Positions 2,317-47,208 of a stretch of DNA of 50,793 nucleotides are shown here, one piece after another. Each line of letters starts with the position of its first letter. The stretch's first letter is position 1. The notes below the pieces were generated by a model, which worked only from the letters and a program-made list of their open reading frames with translations, searched no databases and was not told the origin of the DNA. Source of the DNA: a virus; IMG/VR virus record IMGVR_UViG_3300031951_000240, positions 1 through 50,793 of that record; one strand, given 5' to 3'. Position numbers and translations under genes: made by a program.

Positions 2317-2325
2317 ATATTTATA
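2317..2325 (+). promoter_or_regulatory. Putative late promoter box ATATTTATA
   Basis: This exact motif follows the capsid terminator and lies 20 nt before the ATG at 2346. The same box recurs in every larger intergenic gap of the window. Confidence 0.65.
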
Positions 2326-2345
2326 ATGGTAAACTCTTTAAATAT

Positions 2346-2726
2346 ATGGCAGCTGGTAAATATTCTTTTGTAATTGAGCAAGGAGCAACTACAAATATTC
2401 AAATAAATTGGACGGATGTAAGTGGTTCTGCAATAGACCTAACTGGTTATCATAGTAGAATGCAAATTAGACCAGGTGTGGAATCTTCTGATGTATTTCT
2501 TTCATTATCATCTTCACTTAAAGCAGATGGTACTGGTATTAATTTAAGTGGTTCAAATGGTATTACACCTTTGGCTAGTGGTTCATTAGCAATTTATATA
2601 TCCGCTGTATCTTCATCAGTACTAAATTTTGGTGAAGCTTATTATGATTTGGAAATGTGTAAAGGAAATGAAGTTACAAGATTATTAGAAGGAAAAGTAA
2701 AACTATCTAAAAACGTAACTAGATAA
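2346..2726 (+). CDS. Small virion protein, predicted beta fold
   Basis: This 126-residue protein opens with 'YSFVIEQGATTNIQINW' and continues 'AIDLTGYHSRMQIRP'. I recognise this pattern from small all-beta virion proteins of marine T4-like phages and from the N-terminal domains of some baseplate upper proteins. It has alternating hydrophobic strands, no signal peptide and no membrane segment. It is first in a two-gene unit directly after the capsid terminator and one base from the next gene, so both are probably made late in similar amounts. A head decoration or tail-fibre attachment role is possible but not shown. No Shine-Dalgarno is visible before the start. Confidence 0.6.
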   Translation: MAAGKYSFVIEQGATTNIQINWTDVSGSAIDLTGYHSRMQIRPGVESSDVFLSLSSSLKADGTGINLSGSNGITPLASGSLAIYISAVSSSVLNFGEAYYDLEMCKGNEVTRLLEGKVKLSKNVTR

Positions 2727-2727
2727 T

Positions 2728-3033
2728 ATGTCAGTAACAGTAACAAATAATCTTACACAGGTAACTATATCAACTGCAGGAGTTTCTGGTAAAAGTGGGA
2801 CATCTGGCACGTCTGGATTCTCAATTGAATCTGCATCTTTTGCAACAACTGGTTCAAATACATTTATTGGTAATCAAACAATAAGTGGTTCTTTAAACGT
2901 AAGCGCTAGTATTATTTTACCAAACCATGTATCTGCTCCATCTTCACCAAACTCTGGAGCACTTTACTTTAATACAACCGATTCTCATTTCTATGGATGG
3001 GATGGTGGACAATGGAAACAATTGGATAATTAA
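2728..3033 (+). CDS. Small fibre-like protein with short Gly-X-Y segment
   Basis: This 101-residue protein has a short beta N-terminus, then a mini Gly-X-Y run ('GVSGKSGTSGTSG', residues about 18-30). After that comes an 'ISGSLNVSASI' strand as in the large fibre genes downstream. The end 'SGALYFNTTDSHFYGWDG' is a small domain I know from the tips or connectors of phage tail-fibre proteins. It is effectively a miniature of the giant fibres encoded later. The start is one base after the preceding stop, so the pair is probably translationally coupled. It may be a head or whisker-type fibre given its place next to the head genes; that is inference. Confidence 0.6.
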   Translation: MSVTVTNNLTQVTISTAGVSGKSGTSGTSGFSIESASFATTGSNTFIGNQTISGSLNVSASIILPNHVSAPSSPNSGALYFNTTDSHFYGWDGGQWKQLDN

Positions 3034-3061
3034 TCCCAAATAACTAAACTTCCCTTTTCTA

Positions 3062-3070
3062 ATATTTATA
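3062..3070 (+). promoter_or_regulatory. Putative late promoter box ATATTTATA
   Basis: Exact motif in the 62-nt gap, 25 nt before the ATG at 3096. No other box is seen before 20623, so it could drive the neck genes and the 4363-residue gene as one roughly 17.5-kb unit. Confidence 0.65.
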
Positions 3071-3095
3071 GGTAACGTTAAAATAAGTACTTATA

Positions 3096-4262
3096 ATGGC
3101 ATTAGAAACACTCGTATATCCTGGTTCTTCATCGTTTTTCCCAGGTCAGACACCTTTTGGAATTTATGATACTGATTATGAATTCCAAGAAGATGCTCCA
3201 AAAGTGGCACTTTGGTGTGCTAGAAGATTGGGATATCCTATCCAAAATATAGAATTAATAGATGAAAATTTCTATGCATGCTTTGAGGAATCAATTTCCG
3301 AATATGGCGCACAGGTAAATCAATTTAATATTCGTAATAATTTAGATACATTACGTGGTAAATCAAAAGCAAATTCACTTACAAGTAAATTAGTACAAGG
3401 TTCAAACCTTCCAACACTTATTTCAATTTCTGATGCATATGGTACATTAGTTGGTGTTGGTGGAAATACCGATATCAAAAAAGGATATGTTGAATTGGTT
3501 CCTGGTAAACAAGAATATGATTTGGATACATTATGGTCAGCTGTTTCTGAAAGTGGAAAACGAATAGAAATTGTAAAAGTATTCCACGAACCAGTACCTG
3601 CAATCAATAGATTCTTTGACCCATATTCAGTAAGTGGACAGGGTACATTAAACCTTATTGACGAATTTGGATTTGGTTCATATTCTCCAGCGGCACAATT
3701 TATATTGATGCCAATATTTGAAGATATGTTAAGAATTCAGGCAATTGAATTTAATGACCAATTCAGAAAATCGGCATTTACTTTCAATATTGTAAATGGT
3801 AAAATAAGAGTATTTCCAAAACCAACCTCTCAACAGGTAAATTTATACGGAAGATTATATTTTGATTATTTTGTAAAAGATGATTTTACTGAAAATTCAA
3901 CATCAATAACATCAAATGTTATTTCGGATTATTCGGATATTCCATATGATTTTATGGAATACAATGGTATTAATGATGTGGGTAAACAATGGATTAGAAA
4001 ATATACATTGGCTTTAGTAAAAGAACTATTGGGTGCTGTGAGAGAAAAATATTCTCAAATTCCAATTCCTGGTTCCGAAATTAGTTTGGATGGAGCCGCG
4101 TTGAGAGCAGAAGCAACAACGGAAAAAGAAAACTTAATGACACAATTGAGAGAAACTTTAGCAGAATTAGAGAGAACAAAGCAATTTGAAAATAGAAATA
4201 CTGAAGCTACGGCTCATCAAGAAATGTTACGAAAAGTTCCTCTTCCAATTTATATAGGTTAA
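3096..4262 (+). CDS. Neck protein, gp13-like
   Basis: This 388-residue protein (T4 gp13 is about 309) probably joins the portal vertex to the tail. The N-terminal pattern 'FFPGQTPFGIYDTDYEFQ', then 'CARRLGYPIQNIELID' and 'FYACFEESISEYG', is the signature I associate with gp13-type neck proteins of marine T4-like phages. The middle has beta strands ('KKGYVELVPGKQEYDL', residues about 129-144) typical of virion interface proteins. A charged C-terminal helix runs over residues about 335-375. It is four bases upstream of the gp14-like gene, which supports the assignment. It has no catalytic motif, as expected of a structural part. Confidence 0.75.
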   Translation: MALETLVYPGSSSFFPGQTPFGIYDTDYEFQEDAPKVALWCARRLGYPIQNIELIDENFYACFEESISEYGAQVNQFNIRNNLDTLRGKSKANSLTSKLVQGSNLPTLISISDAYGTLVGVGGNTDIKKGYVELVPGKQEYDLDTLWSAVSESGKRIEIVKVFHEPVPAINRFFDPYSVSGQGTLNLIDEFGFGSYSPAAQFILMPIFEDMLRIQAIEFNDQFRKSAFTFNIVNGKIRVFPKPTSQQVNLYGRLYFDYFVKDDFTENSTSITSNVISDYSDIPYDFMEYNGINDVGKQWIRKYTLALVKELLGAVREKYSQIPIPGSEISLDGAALRAEATTEKENLMTQLRETLAELERTKQFENRNTEATAHQEMLRKVPLPIYIG

Positions 4263-4266
4263 TATT

Positions 4267-6186: not shown

Positions 6187-6562
6187 AAAACTTCCAAATA
6201 TTAATATTGATACCACTCAAAGGCTAAGAGATAGATTAGGCTTTAGAGAATTTGTACTTCAGGTAAACAAAGAAACGTTTACTTTTAACTATGTACCAGA
6301 TTTGATGGAAGTAGAAAATGATATATATTTTAAATTAACACTTACTAATAAAAGATTTGTAATTGATATTTTAGAAGTTGATAATATAAAAGATTACATT
6401 GATATCTATTTATATGGTGTAAAACAACCTCAAAATCGTTATGGAATTGAGATTGTTGGTAATAATATAATTGTTACGTTTGTTGCGGATATTACCAGAT
6501 TACCAAAAGAGGTAAAGGCAGCAGATTTTGAAATAAAAGGGAAAATAGTAGAAATTGTATAA
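6179..6562 (+). CDS. Small virion protein, second paralogue of the gp15-like C-terminal domain
   Basis: This 127-residue protein is of unknown function. Its second half ('IDIYLYGVKQPQNRYGI' then 'AADFEIKGKIVEIV') follows the same plan as the previous gene and the gp15-like C-terminus. In this copy the N-G turn has become Y-G, so it is the most diverged of the three. The first half ('FREFVLQVNKETFTFNYV') is another beta segment. It overlaps the upstream gene by 8 nt and shares a TAATG stop/start with the giant fibre gene, so it may be the adaptor through which that fibre joins the virion. That role is inferred from coupling alone. Confidence 0.58.
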   Translation: MSRKLPNINIDTTQRLRDRLGFREFVLQVNKETFTFNYVPDLMEVENDIYFKLTLTNKRFVIDILEVDNIKDYIDIYLYGVKQPQNRYGIEIVGNNIIVTFVADITRLPKEVKAADFEIKGKIVEIV

Positions 6563-9500
6563 TGGCTAGACTGATACCTCGTAAACAAATTGAAGAACAA
6601 CAAAATATAACCGGGTCTTTAACGGTTGCGGAAAACTTGTTTTTAGGAAATGATGCGATTATTTCTGGCTCACTTTTTGTATCAAAAAGTTTCTTTATGG
6701 GAAACGATACCGGTTCAAAAAATGAGATTACAGGTTCAGTATTTTTAACTGGTTCGTTGATAATTGATGGTGTTCTAAAAACGGGAGCACCTAATACTGT
6801 TTTATCAATTACATCATCAAACACAATATTAGCAGAAGATACACAAAGATATTCTGGTATTTTGGCAAAAGATTTTGGTGCTAACGTACCTACACTATAT
6901 GTTTCTTCTACCGATGGTGATGATACAAATGATGGTAGAACTATTCAATTTCCACTTCGTACAATTAAAAGAGCTGCATCATTAGCAGCACCTGGATACG
7001 ATGGACGTTATGGTTTTGATACGGGTTCTATTCAAAATGGATATGTAATTAAAGTTCAGGCTGGTACATATTTGGAAGATAACCCTGTTATACTTCCTAA
7101 AAATACAACTATTTGGGGTGCAGGTTTGCGTATTACAAAAATCAACGCTAAAAACCCTACTGAAGACTTATTCTATGTAAACTCTGGTTGTTATATCGCA
7201 GAGGTTACTATGGGAGGATTGAGATTATTTCCTGACCAAATAAATCCTGAAAAAGGATTTGCTGTAGCGTTCCAACCTGGTGCATTTATCACAACTTCAC
7301 CATACGTTCAGAACTGTTCACAAATTTCTAACCAAGAGAATTCATTTACGGAGCTTTATGAAGAAATTCCTCCTGGCGGTGGTGGATTGTATGTTAATGG
7401 TGATGTAATCAATCCTGATTCACCACTCGCTTCAATGGTATTAGATGCCTATACACAAATTTCTCCAAACGGAGTTGGTTGTTTGGTAAATGGTAGAGGA
7501 TTCATTCAGCTCGTATCTTTCTTTAATAACTTCTCATATTATGCAATTAGAGTAAACAATGGTGGACATGCTACCCTAAACAACTCAAACATTTCGTTTG
7601 GTTTGTATGGTATGTATGCTAGTGGTTCTCGTTTTATTAGTGGTAGTGGTGGAAATATTGATGCTAGAGATAGAGTAAGAGCAAGTTGGAGTGTAGTTGT
7701 TGATGTATTGAATAGAGGGTTAGATGCATTGCCTGAAGTAACAACATTAAATACAGCGGAAGGTATCCGTTTATCATCTCCTTCTCAATTTCCACAATAC
7801 ACTACTTCATCTGGAGTAGAATTATCTTCAACCGCTGCGGATGAAATTTCAGCGGATTTTAAATTAGTAAGTGAAATAGTAGATAGTGGTACTTCAAATT
7901 ATCCTACGTTATTAGCAAGAAGTTCAAATAAAGGATTTAGTTCAGAATCACCTTATAATATTTTAGGAGCAACACAAATTACAGGCTCTTATTCTGGTTC
8001 GGCTACTCCACTATCTGCATCTCAAGGAGATTTAAATCAAATTAGCTCTTCGTTTGGTGTATTATTAGGTATTTTTTCAAATGGTACTGGTTCCTATGAT
8101 TTTAAATCATCAACATCGGCAAGTATTAGAAGAACATCAATAATACCATCACCTGCTTCTCCGGCATTACCAAATGATGTAACCGCTAGTATAAGTTCAT
8201 CTTTTGAAACCGTAATAGATATTATAAAAAATGGATTAAGTGTTGTACCAAAATTAACTTCTTCATTAAGTGCAAGTTTTTATATTGGTGGATTAGAACC
8301 AGTTCAAAGTGGTATCTCATCTTCAGTAGAAACAATTAATAAAGTAAGTGCAAGTTTTAGTATAATTTATAACATATTATCAAATGGTACTGGTAGTAAT
8401 ATTTTACCAATTCCAAATAACCATAGAAGAAATTATACAATTACAAATGTAAACAGTTCATCTTATAATTGGGATGGTGTTGGTAATAATCCTACAATAA
8501 CTTTATTTAGAGGTGAAACTTATAAATTTTATGTAAGTGCATCGGAAGGACAAGGTGGAATTGATTATCCATTCTTTATAAGAACACAACCAGTTGAAAC
8601 TATTGCAAACACTTTTGATTATAATAAAGGCGTAATAAATAATGGTGATAGTGTTGGTAATATTACGTTCACTGTACCATATGATGCACCAAATACATTA
8701 TATTATACATCACAAATTAATAATACATTAAGTGGTAGATTCTTTATAATAAATAATTCAGAAACTCCAAGAGAATTAATTGCAAATACACTAACATATC
8801 CAGCAACTATAAGTGGAAGTGTGGCTAGTGAAGACACTGATATAATTAACGCATTTGAAATTCTTACCGGAAGTAAAGCATTTATTCAAGAAGAAGTAAT
8901 ACAGTATATTTCATCTTCTTGGAGTGGTGTAGATGGATTCTATTACAATGAGGCAACCTGCCGTAGAGATGTTGGTTTCTTGATTGATGCTGTTGCGCAA
9001 GACCTATTATTGGGTGGTAATGATAAAAGTATTACTGCAGGTAGATTCTATTACGAATATCCATCTAGTGCAATTACATCACAAAAAGACCCAACCAAAA
9101 CAGCAGTAAAATACGCAGCTAGATTAGCAATTGAACTTATCAAAAATAAAACATTTAGGGATATTGATTTAGATGCATATACACAAAAAAGAAAAACTGC
9201 ATGGCAAGTAATCAATAACAATAAATCATTTATACAAAATGAAACTATTGCATTTTTATCTTCTTCTTGGTCTAATTTTTATTATAATGAAGCAAAGTGT
9301 AAACGAGATGTTGGTTATATTCTAGATGCTGTAGCAACTGATACTCTATATGGAGGTAATGAAAGAAGTATTGAAGCGGGTGAATTTTATTATTTATATC
9401 CTTCATTAGCGATTGTTGAGGGAGATGGTGATGGTAATGGACAATTGGGACAAACTTTAGATGGTATTCGCTTTGCAGCAGGTTTAGTAAATAATTTAGT

Positions 9501-12500
9501 TGCAGGAAAAACATTTAGTTTACCAACTACATCTTCACAAGCTGCATACTCTTTAATAAGAAGTAATAAGAGTTTAATACAAAATGAAGTAATTGAATTT
9601 GTAAATGTTGCTTTTCCACAATTATCATATAACCAAGAAAAGTGTAGACGTGATGTTGGATACATATTAGATAATGTTTCAACTGACTTGTTGTATGGTG
9701 GAAATGAGAGAAGTGTAATAGCAGGTAAATATTATTATGAATACCCATCTATTGCTACAACAACTCAAAGAAGAGAAACAATTGGTGCAATTAAATACGC
9801 AAAAATTATTACTGATTATATTGTAAGTAATATTATTTTAGATACACCAAGAATTGTAAATAATGATGAGAGAAATTTTAAAGTTACAAATAATACAAAT
9901 GTAACATCATCAAATAGTGGTACGCAAACTCAACAAAATTCTATTAGTAGTTCTTTTGCAATTATTGAAGGAATTATTAAAAGAGGTATATCCGCTGTAC
10001 CTTCAATATTGGCACAAAATACGGGTTTAAATTGGGGTAAAGATAATCCTCTTAATGTAACATCTGGTTCACAGGTTACATCATCATTTGTATCTCCATC
10101 CGAAGTTAATAAAATTGGAAGTGGATATGATATTGTAAATACAATTATTGCAGGTGGTATTGCAGCTGAACCAGCAATCACATACTCACAGGCAAATGCG
10201 ATAAAAGTAACTTCATTAGCACAATATAGTGGTTCAAATGCCGCAAGTGGTGCGTTAAGTAGTTCATTGTCCGCATCTATATCATTGATAGGTACAATAA
10301 TTACAAATGGTACTGGTTCAATTCCACTTTATACATCAAGTGTAGCGGCAAACATTAAAGTAACTGCTACATCGTTAGAAACTTTGGCAATACCAGCAAC
10401 AACTGCAGAATCACAAAGTATTAGTTCATCAATGAAACTTATTACCGATGTATTAGTAAGTGGTAAATCGGTAATACCTGTATTAACTTCTTCTTTATCT
10501 CAAAATATTAAAGTAAGTGCAACTGAACAATACGTTTCTTCATCTTATAGTGGAAGCTTGGAAGATGTTGCATTTATTTCATCTTCAATTTCAATTGTAA
10601 CTAAAATTATTGAAAGAGGTGAGAGTGCAGGTGTATTTGGTAAGCAACCATATACGGCTCCATTATCATCATCTAATGCAAGAGCTGCTTATGAAATAAT
10701 TAAACAAAATATTGATTTCATACAAGACGAAACAATAGCATATTTAAGTTCTTCTTGGAGTACATTTGAGTATGATGAAGCTAAATGCCGTAGAGATGTT
10801 GGATTAATTATAAGTGGTGCCGCTGAAGATTTAATTTTTAACGTAAATTCATCATCAGTAGTAAATGGACAATTCTATTATGAATATCCATCGCAGGCTA
10901 CTGGTTCTCAATTGGCACAAACTTTAGATGGTATTAACTACGCAAGTAGATTAGCACAAAAATTAATTCAAAATATAGAATTACAACAATTTACTGGAAG
11001 TAGAGCAAGTGCTTCATTCTTGATATTGAATAACAAAGATTTTATAGCAGATGAAACCATAGCATATATGAGTTCATCTTGGGGAAGTTTTGATTACAAT
11101 GAAACAACTTGTAGAAGGGATATTGGATATATTTTAGATGCAATCAGAACTGATATTATCTATGGCGGTAATGAAAGAACTAGAATAGCAGCGGATTACT
11201 ATTTTACATATCCATCGGCAGCAACTGGTTCACAATTAATTCAAACAACTGATGCTATCAACTACGCAAGTAGATTAGCACAAAAGATTGTTGTTGGAGA
11301 AACATTCACACAAGCTTCACTTAATTCAATAAACGCAAGTGAGTTAATAAGAAGAAACAAAGAACTTATTGCGGCAGAAGTTGTAGAATATGTTTCATCT
11401 TCTTGGAGTGGAGTTTATTATAATGAGGCTAAGTGTAAAAGAGATGTGGGATATATTTTAGATGCAGTAAGAACTGATTTGGTATATGGTGGAAATGAAA
11501 GAAGTATTGTTGCTGGTGATTTTTATTATAGATATCCATCTGCAGCAACGGTGGGTGGAGAACCTTCCGTATCTCAGCAATTAGACCCAACTATAACAGG
11601 TGTTTATTACGCAAATCAATTAGTACAAAATATTATTAAGAATGTTAGTTTAACTAATCCATCTGAAGCTGTATTAGCCGCAAGAAAATTAGTAAAAGAT
11701 AATAGAACATTCTTACAACAAAATACTATTGAGTATGTGAACGATACATATCCAACATTAAATTATATACAATCTAAATGCTTTAGAGATGTTGGATTTA
11801 TAACTGATAATGTTTTAACTGATTTAGTATATGGTGGAAATGAGAGAGCAATTACTGCAGGAAGATTCTATTTCTTATACCCATCACAAGCAACGGATGC
11901 ACAAGTAACCGAAACAACCGATGCAGTAAGATTTACGAGAGATTTGGCAAAGTTGGTTGCGATTGGTGGTAAGGCAATAGAAGATAGTTTTGATAATGTA
12001 GCAAAAATTATTGAAAGTGGTAGTTCTGCGTTTCCAACTTTAGTTTCAAATACTGAAAATGGTATTAAAAAGACTAGTGAAGTACAAACAATTACTTCAA
12101 GTATTGTAAATCAAACCGATAAAAACATTGTATCTCAATCATTTGGAAATGTAATTAATATTATAGATAAAGGTATTTCTGCAATACCAACAATTACATC
12201 TTCTTCAATAAAGGGTGTTATACGTTTAACTAATAATCAATTTAGTTCATCGGTACAACCACTTCCATCTGATTCTGCAAAAGTAACTACTGGTTTTAAT
12301 ATAGTATTGGATATTATAGCAAATGGTACTGGTTCAATTCCAAATTTGGTAAATAATGCAAGTGGATTAATTAAAAATACAAACTATCCTCAATTTATTT
12401 CAACCGCATCTATATCTAATACATTTATTACTGGCTCAAACAATAGTTTTGATATTGTTTTAGATATTGTGAAAGAAGGAACTGGCTCATTACCAACATT

Positions 12501-19670: not shown

Positions 19671-20603
19671 ATGGCAAATGTATTTGTACCGTTAAACCGA
19701 TTTCAGTCAGTAGTAACATCTCTGACTGGTGAGCAGGATGAAGTTTATGTTACGCCGGTAGGTGTTTCATCAATTGTTCTTTCTGCACAAATTACAAACA
19801 ATAGTTTTGTTACACAGCCTGTAACTATATTAGTAACATCTAATAGAGAAATTCCATTACCATCTTTTGAAGGTGTTTATAGTGGTAGTTCTTTTATAAG
19901 CGCATCTGTTGGTGGGTTTGTAACATTAGATAATTTTAGTGGAAGTTTTGATAGTGCATCGGCACTTCTGGCTCTTAATAGACAATTTTTAAGAAAAGAA
20001 GTGGCTGCATATTCATCATTTCAAAATAATCTTTCTGAAACTCCTTTTGTATTTACTTCTTCAAGATTTGAAAATTACGCTTTAGATTTAGCAGACGCAA
20101 TTTCTTATGATTTAGATAATAATCTAAAAATTAGAACTGATAAAGCTGCAAAATCATATTTTACAAAAAACGGTATTAATATTATAAAAACAAATTTTCC
20201 TGAGGAATATTCATCATCGTTAGACGCTTTAGAATATTTTAATTATTTAAGTCAACAAGTAATAAAAAATCAATCAGTAACAGCATCTCAATTTGTTAGT
20301 AGATTGTATCAAAACACAGTAACTCAATCTTTTAATTCTTTTAGTCCTACAACTTTACAATTTAGTAGTTCTGCTTATGTTATAAATGGATTAGTAAATA
20401 CTGTAATAAACACAATTGAAAATCCAACTTTAATAGCACAAAATCCTATTCAGTTGGTTACAAACGTAACAATTCCGGCAGCGGATTCACTTTCACCTGT
20501 TGTAGCAGGTAAATTAGTATTAGAGGAAGGATATGGCTTTATTGTTTCTGGCTCGCCAGATTTATCAGTAATTCTTTCACTTCTTGAATCTGCAAATGAA
20601 TAA
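19671..20603 (+). CDS. Virion protein with one degenerate RDVG-type module
   Basis: This 310-residue protein starts 17 nt after the giant gene. Residues about 1-95 are beta-rich ('VYVTPVGVSSIVLSAQI'). Residues about 100-165 ('LLALNRQFLRKEVAAYSSF', 'ENYALDLADAISYDLDNN', 'AAKSYF') follow the same order as one C-x-RDVG module of the giant protein, but the Cys and the RD are replaced and GGN is missing. The C-terminus ('GKLVLEEGYGFIVSGSPDLS') resembles small structural proteins of marine T4-like phages. It is probably a partner or terminal adaptor of the giant fibre, derived from the same module family. No enzyme motif is seen. The leader is A-rich (aaaaggaaaataaaaagaa). Confidence 0.65.
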   Translation: MANVFVPLNRFQSVVTSLTGEQDEVYVTPVGVSSIVLSAQITNNSFVTQPVTILVTSNREIPLPSFEGVYSGSSFISASVGGFVTLDNFSGSFDSASALLALNRQFLRKEVAAYSSFQNNLSETPFVFTSSRFENYALDLADAISYDLDNNLKIRTDKAAKSYFTKNGINIIKTNFPEEYSSSLDALEYFNYLSQQVIKNQSVTASQFVSRLYQNTVTQSFNSFSPTTLQFSSSAYVINGLVNTVINTIENPTLIAQNPIQLVTNVTIPAADSLSPVVAGKLVLEEGYGFIVSGSPDLSVILSLLESANE

Positions 20604-20622
20604 CGATATAAATTATCTATTA

Positions 20623-20631: not shown

Positions 20632-20644
20632 GGTGATTTTTTAG

Positions 20645-20653: not shown

Positions 20654-20672
20654 ACAAAGCTGGTAAGTACGA

Positions 20673-32584: not shown

Positions 32585-32593
32585 ATATTTATA
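32585..32593 (+). promoter_or_regulatory. Putative late promoter box ATATTTATA
   Basis: Exact motif in the 48-nt gap, 26 nt before the ATG at 32620. It would drive the unit ending with the 2872-residue fibre. Confidence 0.65.
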
Positions 32594-39200: not shown

Positions 39201-41876
39201 CATATGAGTTCATCAAAATCATTCAGTATCTTAACTTCTGGATGGACAGGTGTAGCACAATTCCATCCTGATGGACATCTTTGGGTAAGAGACCAAATGA
39301 GAGCGGGTATTTACTATGATGCAAATGATACTACATATTACGTCAACCCAGCAGGTGATTCTAGATTTAGCGGTATCTATTTAAGTGGTATTTCATCATC
39401 TTCAAATGGTATATATTTTTATGGTGTTGTAGGTGATAATCCTGGTTCTTATAACCACACTGCTCTTATTGAAAGAATTTGGAGAAACGGTGATGAATCA
39501 GAATTACTTTTATTTAAGGGAAATGATCCTGATACTTCAACTATACATGACCGTTTAAGAGTTGCTGCAACTGGTAGAATCGTATTCCATTCAACAGCAA
39601 CATATGGTAATGTAAACGATTATATATCTGCGGCCGGTACTGGTAATATTGAAGGTAGTGGATATTTTTATGGTGGTGAATTCCACGTACCAGGTAATAT
39701 CCAAACTCCAATAATGTATGATAGAAACAACTCTGGATATTTTGTTGACCCAGCAGGACGTTCTCGTTTATCTTCAATGGATTATGGAAATGGTGGATAC
39801 TATTTAGCTGGTGGTAGTTGGGGTTATAGACACAATACTCCTTATGGATATATTGAATTTGGACCGGCTAACTCATCACATGCTCACATTTATACTGACC
39901 GTTCAAACTTCTATTATAACGTATATGAAATGTATCTAAATGGATACAGAGTAGCAATGTATAACTGGTGGGTTGGTAATATGTATTTAGGAAGTGGTGG
40001 TGATTTCTACGCAACTATTTTCTATGATTCAAATAATAGTGGATATTATATAAATCCAGATGGTGGTTCTAGTATGAATCAGGTCACAACTAATAATCTC
40101 TATATTAGACCTGGATATATGTTACATTCTGATCCTGGTGGTTGGACTGGTGAACACTATAAATTACAATGGCACTCATCACATATGTATGGCCAAATTT
40201 ATGGTAATGGTTATTTCATTATGAGATATGGTTCTGATGGTTTAGAATCCCATCAGTTTGCAAGAGATGGAAACTATTGGAATAGATATATGGGTTGGAT
40301 GAGTAACTACATCAACCAAAACGTAAGAACTGATGCAGGACCTACATTCCAAGAAGTTTATGTAAATGGATGGTTTAGAAACAATACTTCTGGACATGGT
40401 TTATATAACCAAAACAGAGGAATGCACTGGTATTCAAATAACGGATATTGGAAATCAGCTGGTGGTGGATATGGATATGGTGGTATTGTAATGTACAATA
40501 ACTACGAATCTGATTTAAGAGGATATGCTGGATATTGGGATGGTAGTGGTTTTGGTATGTTGAACTCATCTGGTAACTGGCAGATTCGTATTGAATATGG
40601 TAATGCTCATATGGAATTATATCGTGTGACATGGGCAAACGATATGAGAGCATATATTTTCTATGATAGAGGTGATACCGGATACTATATGGACCCTAAC
40701 TCTCGTTCTCAATGGTTAGGATTAGAAAATAGAGGTAAAGGTAATATATCATTAACCGGTAGGTCAAACTGGAGAAGACCACAAGATTACACTGGTGATG
40801 TTTATTATTGGACAGGTAATATGGGTTGGGGTACAACTGACTTCAACTGGGTAATGGATTGGGGTAGTGGTGATATTGATACTTGGTCAAACCCTGCTAA
40901 CCAACCTCCTGGTACATCTCACTGGGTGGGTGTTCAATCATACCACTATACTTGGAGTTATAATTCGGGATATGGATGGCAGTTAGTTGGTGGACCTGTG
41001 GATAGATTGTGGTTCAGAAACTCTTGGCCAAACAATAGTGGATGGAAAGCACAGGTTGACTCAAATAATAGAGGTGAATATTGTATTCCAACTTATGATT
41101 ATAACCACTATTCAAGAGTTTACTTTACTTATAATAGAGGATACTACGCAACACAAACCGATTCGGCAATGTGTCAGCCGTACTCAACCGGCAATAATGG
41201 TGCATTTATGAGTTTCCACAAAGGTGGTTACTACGCATTGAATTTAGGTTTGGATGGCGATAACGTTGTAAGATGGGGTGGATGGTCATCTAGATGGCAG
41301 AGATACTATTTGAATGATGATACTATTGGTACTCCATATGTAGTTCGTGCAAACTTTGATAACTATGGTGGTGGTGGTATGTGGGTATCCGATGATGGTG
41401 ATTTGGCAGACGTAAATGACGGATATTTATCACTTCGTGCATCTTATGGATTGAGAATCTTCTCTGGTAATAGAGGTGGTGGTGCAAATATTAACTTAAG
41501 ATATGACGGTGTAATTATTGCATCAAACAACATTATTGCGTATGGTTCACCTTCGGATAGAAGATTAAAAGATAATGTTAAATTCTACGAAAATGCTTTA
41601 GAAAAAGTTCTTAAATTAAGAGGTGTTGAATTTGATTGGAAGGAGGGAACTGATGAGTACGAAACAACCGGTTTAAGACATGATATTGGTTTCATTGCGC
41701 AAGAGGTTGAAGATATAGAACCATTATTAGTAAGAGCAGATGAAGCTGGATATTTAGCAATAAGAGATAGAGCAATGCCGGCATTATTGGTAAACGCTAT
41801 GAAAGAACAACAGGCTCAAATTGAAGAATTGAAAGCTAAAGTAAAAATGTTAGAAGAAAAATTAGGTTTGGGATAA
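33258..41876 (+). CDS. Giant 2872-residue tail fibre with two Gly-X-Y shafts and C-terminal S74 chaperone
   Basis: The ATG at 33258 is used; the ATG at 33254 is in another frame and stops after six codons. Residues 1-230 are fibre strands, including 'FISSSIIYASGSNKFGD', shared with the 3513-residue fibre. Gly-X-Y tract one covers 234-568. A compact insert at 569-683 follows ('YDFSTIITDTDPGNGKVQYN'), then Gly-X-Y tract two at 684-825 and a cap ('NGVITLNGSAPNGTV'). From about 1200 to 2480 there are eight 'IFYDSNNSGYYIDPNGxSxL' repeats in an aromatic, Asn- and Gly-rich distal part. From about 2764 the peptidase-S74 intramolecular chaperone ('PSDRRLKDNVKFYENAL') ends in a coiled coil. Such proteins trimerise and cut themselves before the chaperone. 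It is probably a receptor-reaching tail fibre. Confidence 0.85.
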   Translation: MEYLGKSPNGLNQLSSSLIGLFVSGSKIADFSSASVSIVGSFSASGVQTNLIVSQSNSPIQILGNVQITGSLNISSSISASLFRGDGGGLFNINASAIGDLNQLKSGSAIANISPNKGLIVNTGVSIDNFLIVSGSATIGSNATIANNLVVGGKITTTELHTTFISSSIIYASGSNKFGDATSDRQEITGSLSVSGSIGVTGDTIPTDNTTNEVLVVNLTTGRVGRRFAAATSGTSGTSGTSGSGGSSGSSGSSGSSGTSGSGGSSGSSGSGGTSGTSGSSGSSGTSGSGGTSGTSGSGGSSGSSGSGGTSGTSGSGGTSGSGGTSGSGGTSGSGGTSGSGGTSGSSGSSGSSGSSGSSGSSGTTGSSGTTGSAGTTGTAGSGGSSGSTGSSGTTGSSGISGSSGSSGTNGSSGTGGSAGTAGSGGTSGISGAGGSAGTSGSSGSSSTSGTSGSSGSSGTSGSTGSSGITGAGGSAGSSGSGGTSGTSGSSGTSGSGGTAGTSGSAGSSGLSGSSGSGGSSGTSGSGGTSGTTGSSGTTGTSGSAGTSGTSGSAGTAGSGGTSGQSGGIKYDFSTIITDTDPGNGKVQYNNATIGSVTFIYIDILDQNGNNQLAWLNTWDDSTTLGARGYVVLSSRDSGTVNNIFLVNGAVTNASGYFKIPVSYVSGTLPSNNAQLVLDFVRTGDSGTSGTSGSAGSSGSSGSAGTSGSAGSSGSGGTSGSAGTAGSGGSSGTSGSGGSSGTAGSGGSSGTAGSGGTSGSAGSGGTAGTSGSGGSSGTAGSGGSSGTRGTAGSGGTSGTSGSGGTSGTSGSGGTAGTSGSGGSSGLLALTGTTDNGVITLNGSAPNGTVESNLTFDGTLLTVTGNATITGNLTVSGTTTTINTETINLADNIITLNSNFTSGAPTENAGIEVRRGSSATVSFYWDESNDRWTADNTLYVNGNVVLTGTIDTGQGATEVYLMNQNLRTTDNVTFNQVTANTFVGSLSGNATTATTATFINVQDTRATASTPQTQNANQGVRFDFKQNSTNGLNDGGTYNGVMYFRKYGSTTDWSGGGANELGFTDNGNMWLRYGSSTSWGAWKRIMDTTSYPYAANMNQDVRTTDSPTFANATIAGHYYTSNNGSNIAIRSQNNNSDVGLLLQNSGGSYKVQIYGTGANYGFLNGAWASWDIRKEVNGNMFLNNQSTYYLNGSEIFYNRVYGVTDMRSPIYYDYNDTYYYLDPAGSSRLNTVYPQNLGGATLNVRSTDVGVNGSGIYEAITFIDGTVVQAHVSTGNGNPSGCYQWYTTEWVEVNAEKDYEFIVWVRSTGNDNLYVGWNEQRTDGTGISSNPYFHTSPLNTGGTWVKLVHKFRSWRTPSPQGNTEGVDRYASTSSNVIDNTNSNADGVMHSSTRRVQMRFGTCYGGVNGSKTYFYAPRIREATHEEFKQSVTIPYWNGSSYGGRLRFGYNDWGYTGIGMYGAAGEFRMSSDSGDLNVRVDGWGIYNNYLQTYIFYDLANSAYRIDGDGQSRLQQLAVGSSGAAWDVSGINVNGDMGITGANFIYFGHSNGSLGSWQTRTYASGGRQIWNLNGFEFNRTGYGGNLVLYSDSSERVGISTSDFSYTASDNSATVGSITNNRLFINGSVQLLGNNDAIVFGRGTSTFLKDEELRFGWGGGWYMQDSTWIRSSGGRNVYVDSYIRAQGSFRVGSEYSIWGTYGTYSAYLTRMAYISFDWNASYDLYYYHGIASTDLNGSFSDSISINSFNDIILRVDSNDNNNNSYVRFMDNTSGNNQFAYIGRESGSPIAYFGGSVYGTIFYDANDSGYYIDPNSTSQSAGRMRGGILFGPNPTWGAYLYVGTDGRQGLVDSGTPSVASTNGNLHLDAGSGYQLYLNYYDGNVIYFGGGAYNNWGEFSSGIFYAYNQMRSPIFYDYNNTGYYVDPNGNSNIYSLTSGYFYVNGYGYDTSNSDQWPYIYWLRAGSWDEGLIKHSTSRGYWGREGFGIHMSSSKSFSILTSGWTGVAQFHPDGHLWVRDQMRAGIYYDANDTTYYVNPAGDSRFSGIYLSGISSSSNGIYFYGVVGDNPGSYNHTALIERIWRNGDESELLLFKGNDPDTSTIHDRLRVAATGRIVFHSTATYGNVNDYISAAGTGNIEGSGYFYGGEFHVPGNIQTPIMYDRNNSGYFVDPAGRSRLSSMDYGNGGYYLAGGSWGYRHNTPYGYIEFGPANSSHAHIYTDRSNFYYNVYEMYLNGYRVAMYNWWVGNMYLGSGGDFYATIFYDSNNSGYYINPDGGSSMNQVTTNNLYIRPGYMLHSDPGGWTGEHYKLQWHSSHMYGQIYGNGYFIMRYGSDGLESHQFARDGNYWNRYMGWMSNYINQNVRTDAGPTFQEVYVNGWFRNNTSGHGLYNQNRGMHWYSNNGYWKSAGGGYGYGGIVMYNNYESDLRGYAGYWDGSGFGMLNSSGNWQIRIEYGNAHMELYRVTWANDMRAYIFYDRGDTGYYMDPNSRSQWLGLENRGKGNISLTGRSNWRRPQDYTGDVYYWTGNMGWGTTDFNWVMDWGSGDIDTWSNPANQPPGTSHWVGVQSYHYTWSYNSGYGWQLVGGPVDRLWFRNSWPNNSGWKAQVDSNNRGEYCIPTYDYNHYSRVYFTYNRGYYATQTDSAMCQPYSTGNNGAFMSFHKGGYYALNLGLDGDNVVRWGGWSSRWQRYYLNDDTIGTPYVVRANFDNYGGGGMWVSDDGDLADVNDGYLSLRASYGLRIFSGNRGGGANINLRYDGVIIASNNIIAYGSPSDRRLKDNVKFYENALEKVLKLRGVEFDWKEGTDEYETTGLRHDIGFIAQEVEDIEPLLVRADEAGYLAIRDRAMPALLVNAMKEQQAQIEELKAKVKMLEEKLGLG
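33957..34961 (+). repeat. Gly-X-Y tract 1 of the 2872-residue fibre
   Basis: About 112 triplets (residues 234-568) of Gly with Ser, Thr, Ala and Gly, without proline. G-S-G-G-T-S-type triplets are more frequent than in the other fibre. Several phase-keeping bulky residues occur (I, N, L, Q). Confidence 0.88.
35307..35732 (+). repeat. Gly-X-Y tract 2 of the 2872-residue fibre
   Basis: About 47 triplets (residues 684-825), separated from tract 1 by a compact domain of about 115 residues. It is followed at once by the same cap sequence that ends the shaft in the 3513-residue fibre. Confidence 0.88.
36870..40720 (+). repeat. Eight 'FYD..N.GYY.DP.G.S' fibre repeats
   Basis: Copies begin near residues 1207, 1490, 1793, 1907, 2015, 2152, 2254 and 2463. 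The core is [IM]-[FYM]-Y-D-x-[NA]-[ND]-[ST]-x-Y-[YF]-x-[DN]-P-x-G-x-S. Intervals are irregular, so the repeats are probably beta turns separating globular shaft segments. Confidence 0.8.
41550..41876 (+). other. Peptidase S74 intramolecular chaperone domain
   Basis: The domain begins at the S-D-R-R-L-K signature, with Ser2766 as the expected cleavage nucleophile. It continues with 'VEFDWKEG' and 'DIGFIAQEVEDIEP', typical of endosialidase-type chaperones, and ends in a coiled coil ('QIEELKAKVKMLEEKLG'). It would fold the trimer and then be released. Confidence 0.88.
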
Positions 41877-41883: not shown

Positions 41884-41892
41884 ATATTTATA
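41884..41892 (+). promoter_or_regulatory. Putative late promoter box ATATTTATA
   Basis: Exact motif in the 36-nt gap, 20 nt before the ATG at 41913. A clear Shine-Dalgarno (aaaggag) lies between it and the start. Confidence 0.65.
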
Positions 41893-42653: not shown

Positions 42654-42662
42654 ATATTTATT
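42654..42662 (+). promoter_or_regulatory. Putative late promoter box, variant ATATTTATT
   Basis: One mismatch to the consensus, 16 nt before the ATG at 42679, in a 37-nt gap. An AGGA lies 5 nt before the start. Confidence 0.5.
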
Positions 42663-43068: not shown

Positions 43069-43097
43069 TTTGAATAAAAACCTTTTTATATAGATAG

Positions 43098-43131
43098 TAT
43101 CCAAAGCATTATATTGTGTTTTGGATATTTT
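43098..43131 (+). terminator. Probable intrinsic terminator before sheath gene
   Basis: TATCCAAA (43098-43105) pairs with TTTGGATA (43120-43127) around a 14-base loop, followed by a short T-rich stretch. It is weaker than the other terminators in the window. Confidence 0.5.
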
Positions 43132-43135: not shown

Positions 43136-43144
43136 ATATTTATA
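43136..43144 (+). promoter_or_regulatory. Putative late promoter box ATATTTATA, long leader
   Basis: Exact motif, but 56 nt before the sheath ATG, so the leader would be about 45 nt, the longest in the window. A ttggag Shine-Dalgarno-like site lies 7 nt before the start. Confidence 0.6.
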
Positions 43145-43200: not shown

Positions 43201-45561
43201 ATGGCAGAAAGAATCGTATCACCAGGCGTATTTACGAGAGAAAATGACCTATCCTTCTTATCGCAAGGAATAGGCGAAATTGGAGCAGCAATCATAGGAC
43301 CTTTCAAACAAGGACCTGTTTTCGTTCCTACTATCGTAAGAACACAATCAGAGTTTGAAGCAATCTTCGGAACTCCTGATGGAACTTATTATACTGAATA
43401 TGCAGTACAAAATTATTTAAGAGAAACCGGCATTGTAACAATTGTAAGAGTAGGTGGAGTTGGTGGTTACCAAGAAGCTGCTCCAATTGGTATTTTTGCA
43501 TCTGGTGGATTAGTTGGCGAAAAATTAATTGCAACATTACATACAACTGAAAGAGGTAATCAAGATGTTGAAAAAGCAGTACAATTAATATCTGACCCAA
43601 GAGCAGCATACTCTGGTTCGTTCTTACTTTCTGGTTCTGATTTTGGTTGGGTTTCTGCATCTATTCTTCCAAGAGATACAAATGATATTTCAGACGTATT
43701 TGGTGAATCTCCATTAGGAAGTAAAAAAGCTTTTGGATATACATACTTTGAACATTTAGCATCTGCATCTTATTCAAATGCAGCAGCAGGTTTATGGGGT
43801 GGTACGGTTGTTAGTGCAGTTGCACTTCCAACACAAGATTTTGCATACGATGCACAATCTGCAGAAACTCCATATGTACAATCTCAATTGATTAGTGGTG
43901 AAAGATATGACCTCTTTAAATTTGTAACTTTAGGACAAGGTACACTTTATAATACTAAATTTAAAATTGGTATTTCTAATGTAAAAGCAGCAGGTGAAGA
44001 TGGTTCAACCGATTATTCTACATTTACTGTAACAATTAGAGGATATGGTGATACTGATAAGAGAAAGAGTGTATTGGAAACTTACAATGGAGTAAATTTA
44101 GACCCTGCTTCTCCAAACTATATCGCAAGAAGAATTGGTGACAGATGGTTGACGATTGATAATAATGGTAAAATTACCGAAAATGGTGATTACTCCAATA
44201 AATCACAATATGTAAGAGTGGTTGTAGCTGATGCGGGTTCATTCCCAATTTCAGCAGCACCATTTGGACATGGAGCTTATACAAATCCAATTAAGGCAAC
44301 TGATAACGCACAGGCATTAAAAGTTCAAAAAGTAACTTTCCAAACAAATTCAATTGGCAATACTTCATCATCTCCAGTATATTTCTCTGGTTTTGATTAT
44401 GAAACTAGTGGAGTATCTTTGGATAATAAACAATATTTAAAACCACTTCCAATCGGTGCACAAACGGGTTCAAATACCGCATTTGCATTTGATGGTAATA
44501 TTAGTGGTGTAGGATTGAGTTATCAAATGACTGGTTCTGCAGCAACTGATATGGTGAAAAGACAATTTGTTTTGGCTTTCCAAGATGGTTTTGATGGTAC
44601 AAATCCTGTATTGAGAATTGGTAAACCTGGTGTAAACGATTACAATAACAATCCAGTATGGGGACCATCTAATACACAAGGATTTAATTGTGCAACATCA
44701 ACCTCATCTGGTTCAGTTGCATATACAAAAGCAATTAACGCCGTATCAAATCCTGACGAATGGGATATCAATTTAGTAGCAACTCCTGGTATTGTAAGAC
44801 AATTACATCCTTCAATTGTGACTAAAGTGATTGATATGGTTGAAGCTAGACAAGATGCATTCTATATCGCTGATTTCAACGATTACGCGGATACAATAAC
44901 TCAAGCAACTGAGCAAGCAAATGCTGTTGATTCAAACTATGTAGCAACTTACTACCCTTGGGTAAAAACAATTGATACAAACACAAACAAACTTACAACT
45001 GTTCCACCTTCTACATTGTTACCAGCAGTTTATGCAAGTAACGATAGATTAGCGGCTGAGTGGTTCGCACCAGCTGGTTTGAATAGAGGTGGTATCGTAG
45101 GAGCTGTGAGTGTATTGAATAGATTAACACACGCTGAAAGAGATACACTTTATGAAAACAAAGTAAACCCAATTGCAACATTCCCTGGACAAGGTATTGT
45201 AGCATTCGGACAGAAAACTTTGCAAGATAAAGCATCTGCATTGGATAGAATCAACGTAAGAAGATTATTGATTGCAGTTAAGAAGTTTATCGCATCTACA
45301 TCTCGTTATTTAGTGTTTGAACAAAACACTTCTGAAACTAGAGGAAGATTCTTAAACACTGTAAATCCTTACTTGGAAACTATTCAACAAAGACAAGGTT
45401 TGTACGCATTCAAAGTAGTTATGGATGAAACCAATAACACACCGGATGTAATTGATAGAAATATTATGGCTGGACAAATTTTCTTACAACCTGCTAAGAC
45501 TGCGGAATTCATAGTAATTGATTTCAACATCTTACCAACTGGAGCAAGTTTCTCAGCATAA
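43201..45561 (+). CDS. Contractile tail sheath protein, gp18-like
   Basis: This 786-residue protein (T4 gp18 is 659) polymerises around the tail tube and contracts on infection. The N-terminus 'ERIVSPGVFTRENDLSFLSQ', 'AAIIGPFKQGPVFVPTIV' and 'FGTPDGTYYTEYAVQNYL' is classical for T4-type sheaths. The C-terminal third ('YYPWVKTIDTNTNKLTTVPP', 'FAPAGLNRGGIVGAV', 'PGQGIVAFGQKTL') and the end 'IVIDFNILPTGASF' are equally typical. The extra length lies in the middle (about 180-470), the usual variable outer domains. It has its own promoter and a Shine-Dalgarno-like site. The tube gene follows, as expected. Confidence 0.96.
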   Translation: MAERIVSPGVFTRENDLSFLSQGIGEIGAAIIGPFKQGPVFVPTIVRTQSEFEAIFGTPDGTYYTEYAVQNYLRETGIVTIVRVGGVGGYQEAAPIGIFASGGLVGEKLIATLHTTERGNQDVEKAVQLISDPRAAYSGSFLLSGSDFGWVSASILPRDTNDISDVFGESPLGSKKAFGYTYFEHLASASYSNAAAGLWGGTVVSAVALPTQDFAYDAQSAETPYVQSQLISGERYDLFKFVTLGQGTLYNTKFKIGISNVKAAGEDGSTDYSTFTVTIRGYGDTDKRKSVLETYNGVNLDPASPNYIARRIGDRWLTIDNNGKITENGDYSNKSQYVRVVVADAGSFPISAAPFGHGAYTNPIKATDNAQALKVQKVTFQTNSIGNTSSSPVYFSGFDYETSGVSLDNKQYLKPLPIGAQTGSNTAFAFDGNISGVGLSYQMTGSAATDMVKRQFVLAFQDGFDGTNPVLRIGKPGVNDYNNNPVWGPSNTQGFNCATSTSSGSVAYTKAINAVSNPDEWDINLVATPGIVRQLHPSIVTKVIDMVEARQDAFYIADFNDYADTITQATEQANAVDSNYVATYYPWVKTIDTNTNKLTTVPPSTLLPAVYASNDRLAAEWFAPAGLNRGGIVGAVSVLNRLTHAERDTLYENKVNPIATFPGQGIVAFGQKTLQDKASALDRINVRRLLIAVKKFIASTSRYLVFEQNTSETRGRFLNTVNPYLETIQQRQGLYAFKVVMDETNNTPDVIDRNIMAGQIFLQPAKTAEFIVIDFNILPTGASFSA

Positions 45562-45581: not shown

Positions 45582-45590
45582 ATATTTATT
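45582..45590 (+). promoter_or_regulatory. Putative late promoter box, variant ATATTTATT
   Basis: One mismatch to the consensus, 25 nt before the tube gene ATG, in a 54-nt gap. The tube would therefore be expressed separately from the sheath. Confidence 0.5.
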
Positions 45591-45615: not shown

Positions 45616-46113
45616 ATGGCAGATATACTATCCTTTGATAAGATGTTCTATACGAACTTCGAACCTAAAATGAAGAATCGCTACATTATGGAGTTTAGCG
45701 ATTTATCAATCCCTTCATTTTTAGTGAGTGCAGCAAATAGACCAACAATTCAGTTCCAAACTGTGAAGCTTGACCATATCAACGTATATAGAAAGCTTAA
45801 AGGTAAAGGTGAATGGCAAGATTTGGAAATCACTCTTTATGACCCTATTGTTCCATCTGGAGCACAAGCGGTAATGGAGTGGGTTCGTTTATCACATGAA
45901 TCTATTACCGGTAGAGATGGATATGCAGAAATGTATAAGAAAGATATTGATTTCTATTTGTTAGGACCTGTTGGTGATAAGATTGAGCAGTGGAAGTTAA
46001 AGGGAGCATTTATATCTCAGGCAAACTTTGGTGATTTAGCATACAACTCTGAAAATGAGCCAGTTAATATCACTTTAACACTTACTTACGATTACGCAGT
46101 TCTTGAATTTTAA
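45616..46113 (+). CDS. Tail tube protein, gp19-like
   Basis: This 165-residue protein (T4 gp19 is 163) stacks in hexameric rings to make the inner tube for DNA passage. Landmarks are 'FEPKMKNRYIMEFSDLSIPS' near the N-terminus, 'ITLYDPIVPSGAQAVMEWV' in the middle and the closing 'VNITLTLTYDYAVLEF', all standard for the family. It follows the sheath gene and ends at a strong terminator, forming a single-gene unit. A weak AAAAGG lies about 10 nt before the start. I see nothing abnormal in it. Confidence 0.95.
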   Translation: MADILSFDKMFYTNFEPKMKNRYIMEFSDLSIPSFLVSAANRPTIQFQTVKLDHINVYRKLKGKGEWQDLEITLYDPIVPSGAQAVMEWVRLSHESITGRDGYAEMYKKDIDFYLLGPVGDKIEQWKLKGAFISQANFGDLAYNSENEPVNITLTLTYDYAVLEF

Positions 46114-46134: not shown

Positions 46135-46165
46135 AAGGGATACTCAAAAGGTATCCCTTTTTTAT
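46135..46165 (+). terminator. Intrinsic terminator after tail tube gene
   Basis: AAGGGATAC (46135-46143) pairs perfectly with GTATCCCTT (46151-46159) around a 7-base loop, and a T-run follows. Confidence 0.92.
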
Positions 46166-46186
46166 TTCTAATTTTTTTAGAATAAT

Positions 46187-46195
46187 GTATTTATA
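46187..46195 (+). promoter_or_regulatory. Putative late promoter box, variant GTATTTATA
   Basis: One mismatch to the consensus, 23 nt before the ATG at 46219, just after the tube terminator. Confidence 0.5.
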
Positions 46196-46218
46196 TATAC
46201 AAAACAAAATATAACGTT

Positions 46219-46974
46219 ATGCAAGAAAAACAATTTGATTTTCCAACGGAAGTGTTAGATTTACCATCTGAAGGTAAACTTTATCCAAAAGATAATCCAC
46301 TTTCATCTGGTAGAATTACAATAAAATTAATGACAGCTAAAGAAGAAGATATTTTAGCTTCAGGTAATCTAATTAGAAAGGGTATAGTTTTAGATAAATT
46401 ATTTGAATCTATTTTAGTTGATAATATTAATCCTGATGAAATACTAATAGGAGATAAAAACGCAATATTATTAGCAACGCGTATGTTGGGTTATGGTCCA
46501 GATTATGATTTTTCTTTTTTTTCTTCGGTAAAAAATGAAGTTTTGAAAGCAAGATGTGACCTTTCCCAAATAAAAACAAAAAATGTTGATACTTCAATTT
46601 ATAATAGTAAAAACGAATTTGAGTTTATAACACCAGCTGGTAAAAATAAACTTATATTCAAACTATTGACACACGGTGATGAAAAGGCTGTAGAGAAGGA
46701 TATTACGGCATTAGAAAAACTTAATAAAGATATAAAGAGTGATATTACCACTCGTTTGAGATATATGATAAAATCAGTAGACGGAAATTCTGATATTGGA
46801 CATATCACTAAATATATTAATAATATGTTAGCTAGAGATAGTAAAGCATTTAGAGATTATGTTAAAGCAATTTCTCCGGATATGGATATGAAATTTACTT
46901 ATACTCATGAAAATGGAGAGGTGGAGGAGGCGCCTATTGCATTAGGCGTAAACTTTTTTTGGCCTTCCGAGTAA
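46219..46974 (+). CDS. Tail assembly chaperone / gp26-family baseplate protein (0-frame product)
   Basis: This 251-residue protein starts 'FDFPTEVLDLPSEGKLYPKD' and continues 'IKLMTAKEEDILASGNLI', the signature of the T4 gp26 baseplate family (PF12322-type). In other tailed phages the gene in this place, between tube and tape measure, encodes a tail assembly chaperone that is extended by a programmed frameshift. Near the stop the gene has AAC-TTT-TTT-TGG with a run of seven T (46954-46960). The +1 frame is open there and continues into a conserved-looking extension. Residues about 100-220 are charged and mostly helical, with 'YMIKSVDGNSDIGHITKYI' near 185. It is probably made in two forms that coat the tape measure before tube assembly. 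Confidence 0.75.
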   Translation: MQEKQFDFPTEVLDLPSEGKLYPKDNPLSSGRITIKLMTAKEEDILASGNLIRKGIVLDKLFESILVDNINPDEILIGDKNAILLATRMLGYGPDYDFSFFSSVKNEVLKARCDLSQIKTKNVDTSIYNSKNEFEFITPAGKNKLIFKLLTHGDEKAVEKDITALEKLNKDIKSDITTRLRYMIKSVDGNSDIGHITKYINNMLARDSKAFRDYVKAISPDMDMKFTYTHENGEVEEAPIALGVNFFWPSE

Positions 46975-47176
46975 TCATAGCATAAATCTCCATACACAAA
47001 TCTTTGATATGGTGTACTATGGACAAGGATTTACGGTAATGGAAATATATAATATGCCAACGTATCTACGAAACTTTTATTATAATAAGTTAGCAGATGC
47101 AAAGAAAAAAGAGAATGAAAGTGTGAAAAACGCACAAACACAAAAACAACCTTCAAGAGTTAGGATTAAAAGATAA
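46952..47176 (+). CDS. Frameshift extension of the tail assembly chaperone (+1/-2 frame)
   Basis: This frame opens right after TAA at 46949-46951 and runs without a stop to 47176. It overlaps the end of the gp26-like gene by 23 nt. If the ribosome shifts +1 (or -2) on the seven-T run, the product is about 318 residues with a tail reading GLPSNHSINLH...'IFDMVYYGQGFTVMEIYNMP' and then 'TYLRNFYYNKLADAKKK'. The pattern of an aromatic-Gly-x-G-F element, then a M-P-x-[YW]-L-R-x-F-Y block, is typical of the T part of tail chaperones. An alternative is independent translation from ATG 47009 (55 residues), for which no ribosome site is seen. The stop codon lies inside the terminator stem. Confidence 0.7.
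   Translation, partial: TFFGLPSNHSINLHTQIFDMVYYGQGFTVMEIYNMPTYLRNFYYNKLADAKKKENESVKNAQTQKQPSRVRIKR
46954..46960 (+). promoter_or_regulatory. Probable programmed frameshift site (T7 run)
   Basis: In the zero frame this reads AAC TTT TTT TGG CCT. A tRNA-Phe on TTT can re-pair one base forward or two bases back. Both routes enter the open +1 frame at GGC 46961. A -1 shift would stop after eight codons at 46983. Confidence 0.65.
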
Positions 47177-47190
47177 TCCTAACTTTTTTC
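47159..47190 (+). terminator. Intrinsic terminator overlapping the chaperone stop codon
   Basis: GTTAGGATTA (47159-47168) pairs perfectly with TAATCCTAAC (47174-47183) around AAAGA, with six T after. The TAA stop at 47174-47176 is within the 3' arm, so a ribosome finishing the frameshifted product would disrupt the hairpin. Confidence 0.9.
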
Positions 47191-47199
47191 TTTTATAGG

Positions 47200-47208
47200 A
47201 TATTTATA
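47200..47208 (+). promoter_or_regulatory. Putative late promoter box ATATTTATA
   Basis: Exact motif immediately after the terminator, 20 nt before the ATG at 47229. It would drive the small gene, the tape measure and what follows. Confidence 0.65.

Follow-up and report, generated by a model that had tools for sequence, protein, structure and literature searches.

The 50,793-nucleotide (nt) virus record IMGVR_UViG_3300031951_000240, which was analysed at its full length and is called the window here, raises the question of what function a short A+T-rich box, ATATTTATA, has before its genes, and by which factor it is read. In the window, 26 genes were called, all on the + strand, and the first and last are cut. 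A PHROGs family search, which took in 23 of the 26 proteins (three giant open reading frames, ORFs, were left out), identified the T4-type virion families of the major head protein, head-tail adaptor, sheath stabiliser, sheath, tube, T4_baseplate family and tape measure. A first-pass annotation had described the box as a probable late promoter with reversed T4 polarity, read by a late sigma-like factor. The present results retain a directional, promoter-like box at virion genes, distinct from the early-type class of a relative, and dispense with the reversed polarity. The box probably represents a class of late promoters that lack a −35 element and are recognised, on the host RNA polymerase, by a phage sigma factor from the family of gp118, a protein of Flavobacterium phage immuto.

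On the coding strand, the box or a form of it changed at one base is present in every one of the ten window gaps of at least 36 nt, as the first-pass annotation had claimed, and it is present in none of them on the opposite strand. The exact 9-mer ATATTTATA is found in seven of these gaps (eight copies, with a pair before 20673), and the remaining three have a one-base variant (at 42654, 45582 and 46188). A hit in ten gaps was reached in 0 of 2000 per-gap dinucleotide shuffles (mean 0.94, maximum 5), and chance occurrence in A+T-rich gaps was rejected on this count. Over the 50,793 nt, the 9-mer occurs eight times on the + strand and never on the − strand, compared with a mean of 3.1 and a maximum of 7 in 100 dinucleotide shuffles. 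A count of coding versus intergenic copies, which the annotation had proposed, places all eight in non-coding DNA (2.0% of the window) and none in coding DNA. The 8-mer TATTTATA occurs 15 times on the + strand and never on the − strand (shuffle mean 9.4; at least 15 in 4 of 100 shuffles), with nine non-coding and six coding copies, corresponding to 8.7 and 0.12 per kb. The whole-window count of the 8-mer is less striking than that of the 9-mer, and the placement is the extreme feature.

The end of the box (8- or 9-mer) lies 16–26 nt before the ATG in nine gaps and 56 nt before that of the sheath gene, exactly the distances given previously; where two copies stand in tandem, before 20673, the one closer to the ATG falls within this range and the other lies at 41 nt. 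No box is present in gaps shorter than 25 nt, again as previously described, although most of these are too short to fit the box at that distance. The 254-nt gap at 46975–47228 is probably reduced to about 52 non-coding nt, because a conserved frameshift would make most of it coding, and the box at 47200 still lies inside.

The box was then followed in relatives. At least 596 IMG/VR stretches encode a relative of the sheath, and the best 80 of these contigs (67–84% identity) were used, whose loci are related, so that the counts over them are not independent. In these contigs, TATTTATA occurs 288 times in 42,240 nt of non-coding DNA and 68 times in 988,619 nt of coding DNA, and its reverse complement, TATAAATA, occurs 3 and 53 times, respectively. 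A relaxed form of the box is present in 338 of 357 gaps of at least 36 nt, in 16 of 54 gaps of 25–35 nt and in 2 of 56 gaps of 13–24 nt. When a box 11–45 nt upstream was counted regardless of the gap, it was found for 254 of 357 genes after gaps of at least 36 nt, 17 of 110 after gaps of 13–35 nt and 2 of 215 after gaps of at most 12 nt. On this test, the box marks units and not every start codon, and genes inside operons almost never have it. Most exact boxes in the relatives lie 15–28 nt before the ATG, with further distance classes of 41–61 nt. Among gaps of at least 61 nt, a strict script found a hairpin with a T-run in 62 of 198, and the box follows the hairpin in 54 of the 62. The 354 boxes from the relatives were thinned to 35 non-redundant ones with dissimilar flanks, and no upstream column of these 35 exceeds 0.43 bits.

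Judged by the sheath, Microcystis phage Mel-JY01, the unannotated 484-kb record LR756508 and immuto are nearest to the window, and in immuto two promoter-like classes can be distinguished. The first comprises 37 late boxes, TATTTAT[A/T] (or ATATTTAT), for which no upstream column from −40 to −3 exceeds 0.36 bits; that is, no conserved −35 element is present. The second comprises 18 boxes of early type (TATATTTAGG or a near variant of it), each of which has TTG at one fixed upstream spacing; this spacing played no part in choosing the 18 boxes, for which TA at −12/−11 was used. The early-type boxes with the upstream TTG resemble host sigma-A promoters and precede an early-type gene cluster. Among gaps of at least 25 nt, 19 of the 27 in the virion blocks have the late box and none has the early box; of the 28 in the early-type block, one has the late box and 14 have the early box. 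These blocks were drawn after the boxes had been seen, and "early" and "late" refer to gene content.

In Mel-JY01, 21 of 86 gaps of at least 25 nt have the late box, including the gap before the annotated tube gene; it also stands before genes to which portal and baseplate labels were given from their position. Boxes of the form TAnnTTTG occur elsewhere in this genome. As a separate observation, many gaps of this genome (PP395634, labelled a Microcystis phage; L013–L016) have TAnnTTTG boxes typical of Bacteroidota sigma-A, and matches to TTG-N17-22-TAnnTTTG number 36 and 30 on the two strands, counted with no shuffle baseline. The true host of Mel-JY01 may be a member of the Bacteroidota.

A candidate for the factor that reads the box was found in immuto. 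When the genome was scanned with phrog_234, the gp55 family, a single weak match appeared (E 0.008), to gp118 (78174–78872). This hypothetical protein of 232 residues is homologous to proteins of Mel-JY01 (36.4%) and LR756508 (40.5%) and has relatives in at least 600 IMG/VR stretches; a scan with phrog_12791 gave a match in T4 only. Sigma70_r2 is matched by 21 of 31 gp118-family members at E ≤ 1 (best E 0.007), and the gp118 homolog is the sole Sigma70_r2 match in LR756508 (15.7 bits) and in record G025 (13.2 bits), compared with 14.5 bits for T4 gp55 itself. PDB sequence searches with the family gave no sigma, and no convincing alignment was obtained between gp118 and the annotated sigma of phage RM378. 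An AlphaFold2 model was built for one family member, L115, with a predicted local distance difference test score (pLDDT) of 77.5. The top row of the VIA-align search with this model was T4 gp55 (7d7c_F) at Z 9.8, with 131 aligned residues and a root-mean-square deviation of 6.2, a Z that helical models can reach by chance. SigB (9.5), sigma-E (9.2) and also SigH lie within Z 1 of gp55, and all 50 of the 50 listed rows are sigma chains, judged by title. In a BFVD fold search, the top row was unnamed (E 0.0013), and sigma-named phage proteins stood lower (E 0.8 and 1.4).

The gp118-family proteins have about 230–256 residues and an extra C-terminal helical domain (pLDDT 92). In the fold search, this domain had no clear counterpart (the best row was IscU at Z 5.7; Pfam rows at chance level), and helix-turn-helix proteins and one sigma-H chain appeared at Z 4–5. 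The family motif FDPTNGAKAYSYF aligns by eye, free of gaps, with sigma-70 region 2.3. If it is lined up in this way, an invariant Tyr would match Tyr97 of gp55. In gp55, Tyr97 stacks on the base at −12, according to structural work (PMC7892883). The residues of the gp118 family at the −9 and −8 pockets appear to differ from those of gp55. On these sequence and model comparisons, the family is a candidate phage sigma, gp55-like. We infer that it is a sigma, that it reads the box and that the phage of the window carries a member.

The strand bias of ATATTTATA was counted in 22 records and is given as copies on the majority/minority strand; the word read backwards is the same word and is uninformative as a control. 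Records with both a gp118 homolog and a sheath relative are G059 (13/3), G060 (29/5), G061 (38/3), G062 (24/1), G063 (26/1), G064 (24/5), G024 (14/1), G025 (15/6), immuto (16/1), Mel-JY01 (17/6) and LR756508 (7/3). Ten of these 11 have 15–41 copies with at least 71% on one strand, and the eleventh, LR756508, has its 7/3 in 484 kb; the 11 are no random sample, because eight were found via gp118 and three via the sheath gene. A gp118 homolog, with no sheath relative found, is present in G039 (4/1), G040 (7/2), G065 (7/0) and G066 (13/4), and a sheath relative, with no gp118 homolog found, in G001 (10/0), G002 (11/1), G003 (10/1), G004 (12/1) and G005 (9/2). Among the records tested, none with a sheath identity above 54% held both. 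Outside the group, T4 has 7/6 and RM378 3/3. In RM378 (NC_004735, L230), TTATTTAA or GATATTTAAAG is found near the ATG in several gaps and is perhaps that phage's own late box.

Several results weigh against a gp118-family sigma reading the box. Searches of the 50.8-kb window for the gp118 family and Sigma70_r2 gave no match, and a gp118 homolog was found in 0 of 28 sheath-relative records searched (of the 80); the window record and these records may be fragments. The late sigma-like factor of the first-pass annotation has a gp55-like candidate in relatives and no homolog found in the window itself. The gaps of the late region of LR756508, which has a gp118 homolog, were counted and contain no TATTTATA, and reading that region by eye for an alternative box revealed none that is clear. 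In 80 gp118 contigs, non-coding TATTTATA numbers 158 versus 59 for TATAAATA, a weaker bias in a count unsorted by gene direction, and in the immuto gaps the corresponding numbers are 23 and 8. The box is absent from 8 of the 27 immuto late-block gaps, neither box is found in 13 of the 28 early-block gaps, and of the 28 other gaps, nine have the late box and three the early box. With regard to the protein, a comparison of gp118 with all PHROGs puts the gp55 family third (E 0.5), phrog_234 at E ≤ 1 also finds matches in seven of the 14 control genomes, including two archaeal ones, and its scan gave no match in Mel-JY01, G024 or LR756508. The Sigma70_r2 scores are below the curated cut-off (15.5 bits versus 24 for L115), and the Sigma70_r2 scan of immuto, Mel-JY01 and G024 gave no match. 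The alignment of the gp118 family with gp55 by hhalign has an E of 0.018 and a probability of 2.6%. A Z of about 9.8 can arise by chance with helical models, and Foldseek of L115 against the PDB found nothing at E ≤ 0.001, the best row being sigma-E (0.83).

An alternative that would need no phage sigma is that the box is a variant of the −7 element of host sigma-A (Flavobacterium TAnnTTTG), with the unmodified host holoenzyme reading the late genes. ATATTTA is common to the late box and the immuto early-type box TATATTTAGG, and the sigma-A motifs of F. psychrophilum vary on TAnnTTTG (PMC9723704). However, when the 37 immuto late boxes are placed in the sigma-A register, T occupies −12 in 16% and A occupies −11 in 54%, so that TA is not kept; the late boxes of immuto and the relatives have no conserved TTG at the early spacing, and the late and early-type boxes of immuto separate by gene block. 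We consider this alternative unlikely.

Reading by an alternative sigma factor of the host, or by a phage transcription factor other than gp118, is quite unlikely in our estimation. It would fit the fact that gp118 and the box are linked by association, with LR756508 having the protein and no box in its late region. Against it, the box persists among phages with a sheath that shares just 47–54% identity with that of the window over the matched parts, and a copy-rich, strand-biased box accompanies the two genes in ten of the 11 non-randomly found records described above. The 15–28 nt that separate most exact boxes from the ATG in the relatives could also suggest a translation-start or messenger RNA-processing element instead of a promoter. 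This is very improbable in view of the 41–61-nt distance classes, the terminator-like hairpins directly 5' of the boxes and the near-absence of the box before operon-internal genes, on which a translation element was rejected.

In the preferred reading, a late promoter read by a gp118-family sigma, ATATTTATA (core TATTTAT[A/T]) would be the −10-like element of late promoters in T4-related myoviruses that probably infect Bacteroidota. Host RNA polymerase carrying the divergent gp118-family sigma, which would be the functional equivalent of gp55 in T4, would read it at about −13 to −6, probably in the form of the melted non-template strand. Each box would start one late unit, often directly after a terminator, and about ten predicted late units in the window is a reasonable number. 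Provided that the T4 register applies, the inferred start sites would give leaders of about 11–21 nt, or about 51 nt in the case of the sheath gene; the timing would be late, with the early-type genes of the relatives using a separate promoter of the host sigma-A type.

Along the + strand of the window, the exact box lies at 2317–2325 before gene 2346 (phrog_1084) and 3' of a terminator-like hairpin, at 3062–3070 before gene 3096 (head-tail adaptor family, phrog_211), at 20623–20631 and 20645–20653 (upstream and downstream copies of the tandem pair) before the giant ORF 20673–31214, at 32585–32593 before gene 32620, at 41884–41892 before gene 41913, at 43136–43144 before the tail sheath gene 43201–45561, and at 47200–47208 before genes 47229 and 47475 (tape measure family). 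The variant ATATTTATT is found at 42654–42662 before gene 42679 and at 45582–45590 before the tail tube gene 45616–46113, and the variant (G)TATTTATA at 46188–46195 before the T4_baseplate-family gene 46219–46974. An intrinsic-terminator-like hairpin at 2261–2290 and terminator-like hairpins at 43096–43129, 46135–46159 and 47155–47187, all on the + strand, lie upstream of the boxes at 2317, 43136, 46188 and 47200, respectively. The order in all four window gaps longer than 100 nt is hairpin, box and ATG, with 6–28 nt from hairpin to box. Scans of the window outside 20001–30799 gave no excess of sigma-70 consensus promoters in its two parts (87 vs 105 and 75 vs 90 in shuffles); terminator-like sites were moderately in excess (12 vs 6.4 and 13 vs 8.5).

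The conserved frameshift (+1 or −2) is at the AACTTTTTTTGG site at 46951–46962, just 5' of the tape measure region, and the alternative frame ends at the stop 47174–47176 (region 46219–47176); the arrangement is also present in immuto and Mel-JY01. By analogy, it resembles a frameshift of the tail-assembly-chaperone kind. An ORF of 4363 residues at 6562–19653 is of unusual size within the T4-like virion module. Tandem repeats of 9/18/27 nt at 27615–30386 and 33951–35732, inside the giant ORFs 20673–31214 and 33258–41876, coincide with rises of the G+C fraction to 0.51 and 0.47 and with long antisense ORFs.

No published report of a TATTTATA box was found in a literature search limited to one library. 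With this assignment, late units could be annotated by one simple rule across a large group of phages that are mostly uncultured (at least 596 sheath-relative stretches), and a testable pair of sigma and box is named. Together with the T4 gp55 structures, a pair of lineages with boxes that differ at the two central positions would allow base recognition by phage sigmas to be dissected. A further proposal, which we put forward tentatively and regard as doubtful, is that Bacteroidota-infecting T4 relatives have a separate late-transcription system, in which TATTTATA is read by a sigma that has a C-terminal domain of its own, possibly with no need of gp33 or a T4-type clamp. If this is true, the coupling of late transcription to replication has been lost or rebuilt differently. 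A PF02916 (gp45) search, in which T4 gp45 was found and which divergent clamps could escape, gave no match in immuto, Mel-JY01, G024 or G025; Mel-JY01 has an annotated clamp-loader subunit.

Among known systems, the Bacteroidota sigma-A promoter has TTG at −33. Its −7 element, TAnnTTTG, is A+T-rich like the box, and the TTTA core is common to the immuto early-type boxes; the late boxes differ in having no upstream TTG (immuto and relatives) and in not keeping TA at −12/−11 (immuto). Group-2 jumbo phages (PTm1, LAK), some on Bacteroidota, are of the gp23 type and encode sigma factors and a gp33 ortholog, and the part of the description consulted names no TATTTATA box for these sigmas (PMC7824862). 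The comparison of gp118 with them consists of the weak BFVD fold row for PTm1 at E 1.4.

The closest likeness is to the T4 late promoter, TATAAATA, which is used by gp55 with gp33 and the clamp gp45. Both are a single −10-like A+T octamer with no −35 element, before virion genes of T4-related phages (by gene content here). TATAAATA has no copy on the coding strand of the window. TATTTATA equals it in six of eight bases in the same orientation, the centre being TT here and AA in T4. When both are read in one direction, two central A-to-T changes account for the whole difference, which makes a reversal unnecessary; the resemblance on the reverse strand results from the near symmetry of TATTTATA. 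T4 gp55 binds the melted non-template strand of the −10-like element (PMC7892883), which makes changed central bases a simpler explanation than a flipped box. As described in PMC2988020, the late promoters of KVP40, 44RR and S-PM2 have in silico consensus boxes close to that of T4, and the Aeh1 variant differs at −13/−12 and not at the central bases. The gp118-family candidate differs from gp55 in its C-terminal helical domain, and no gp55-like LDFLY C-terminus was seen by eye; in its predicted fold, the top structural match is gp55, tied within Z 1 with other sigmas. The box is probably a variant of a known late-promoter type, and phage sigmas in jumbo phages of Bacteroidota were already known.

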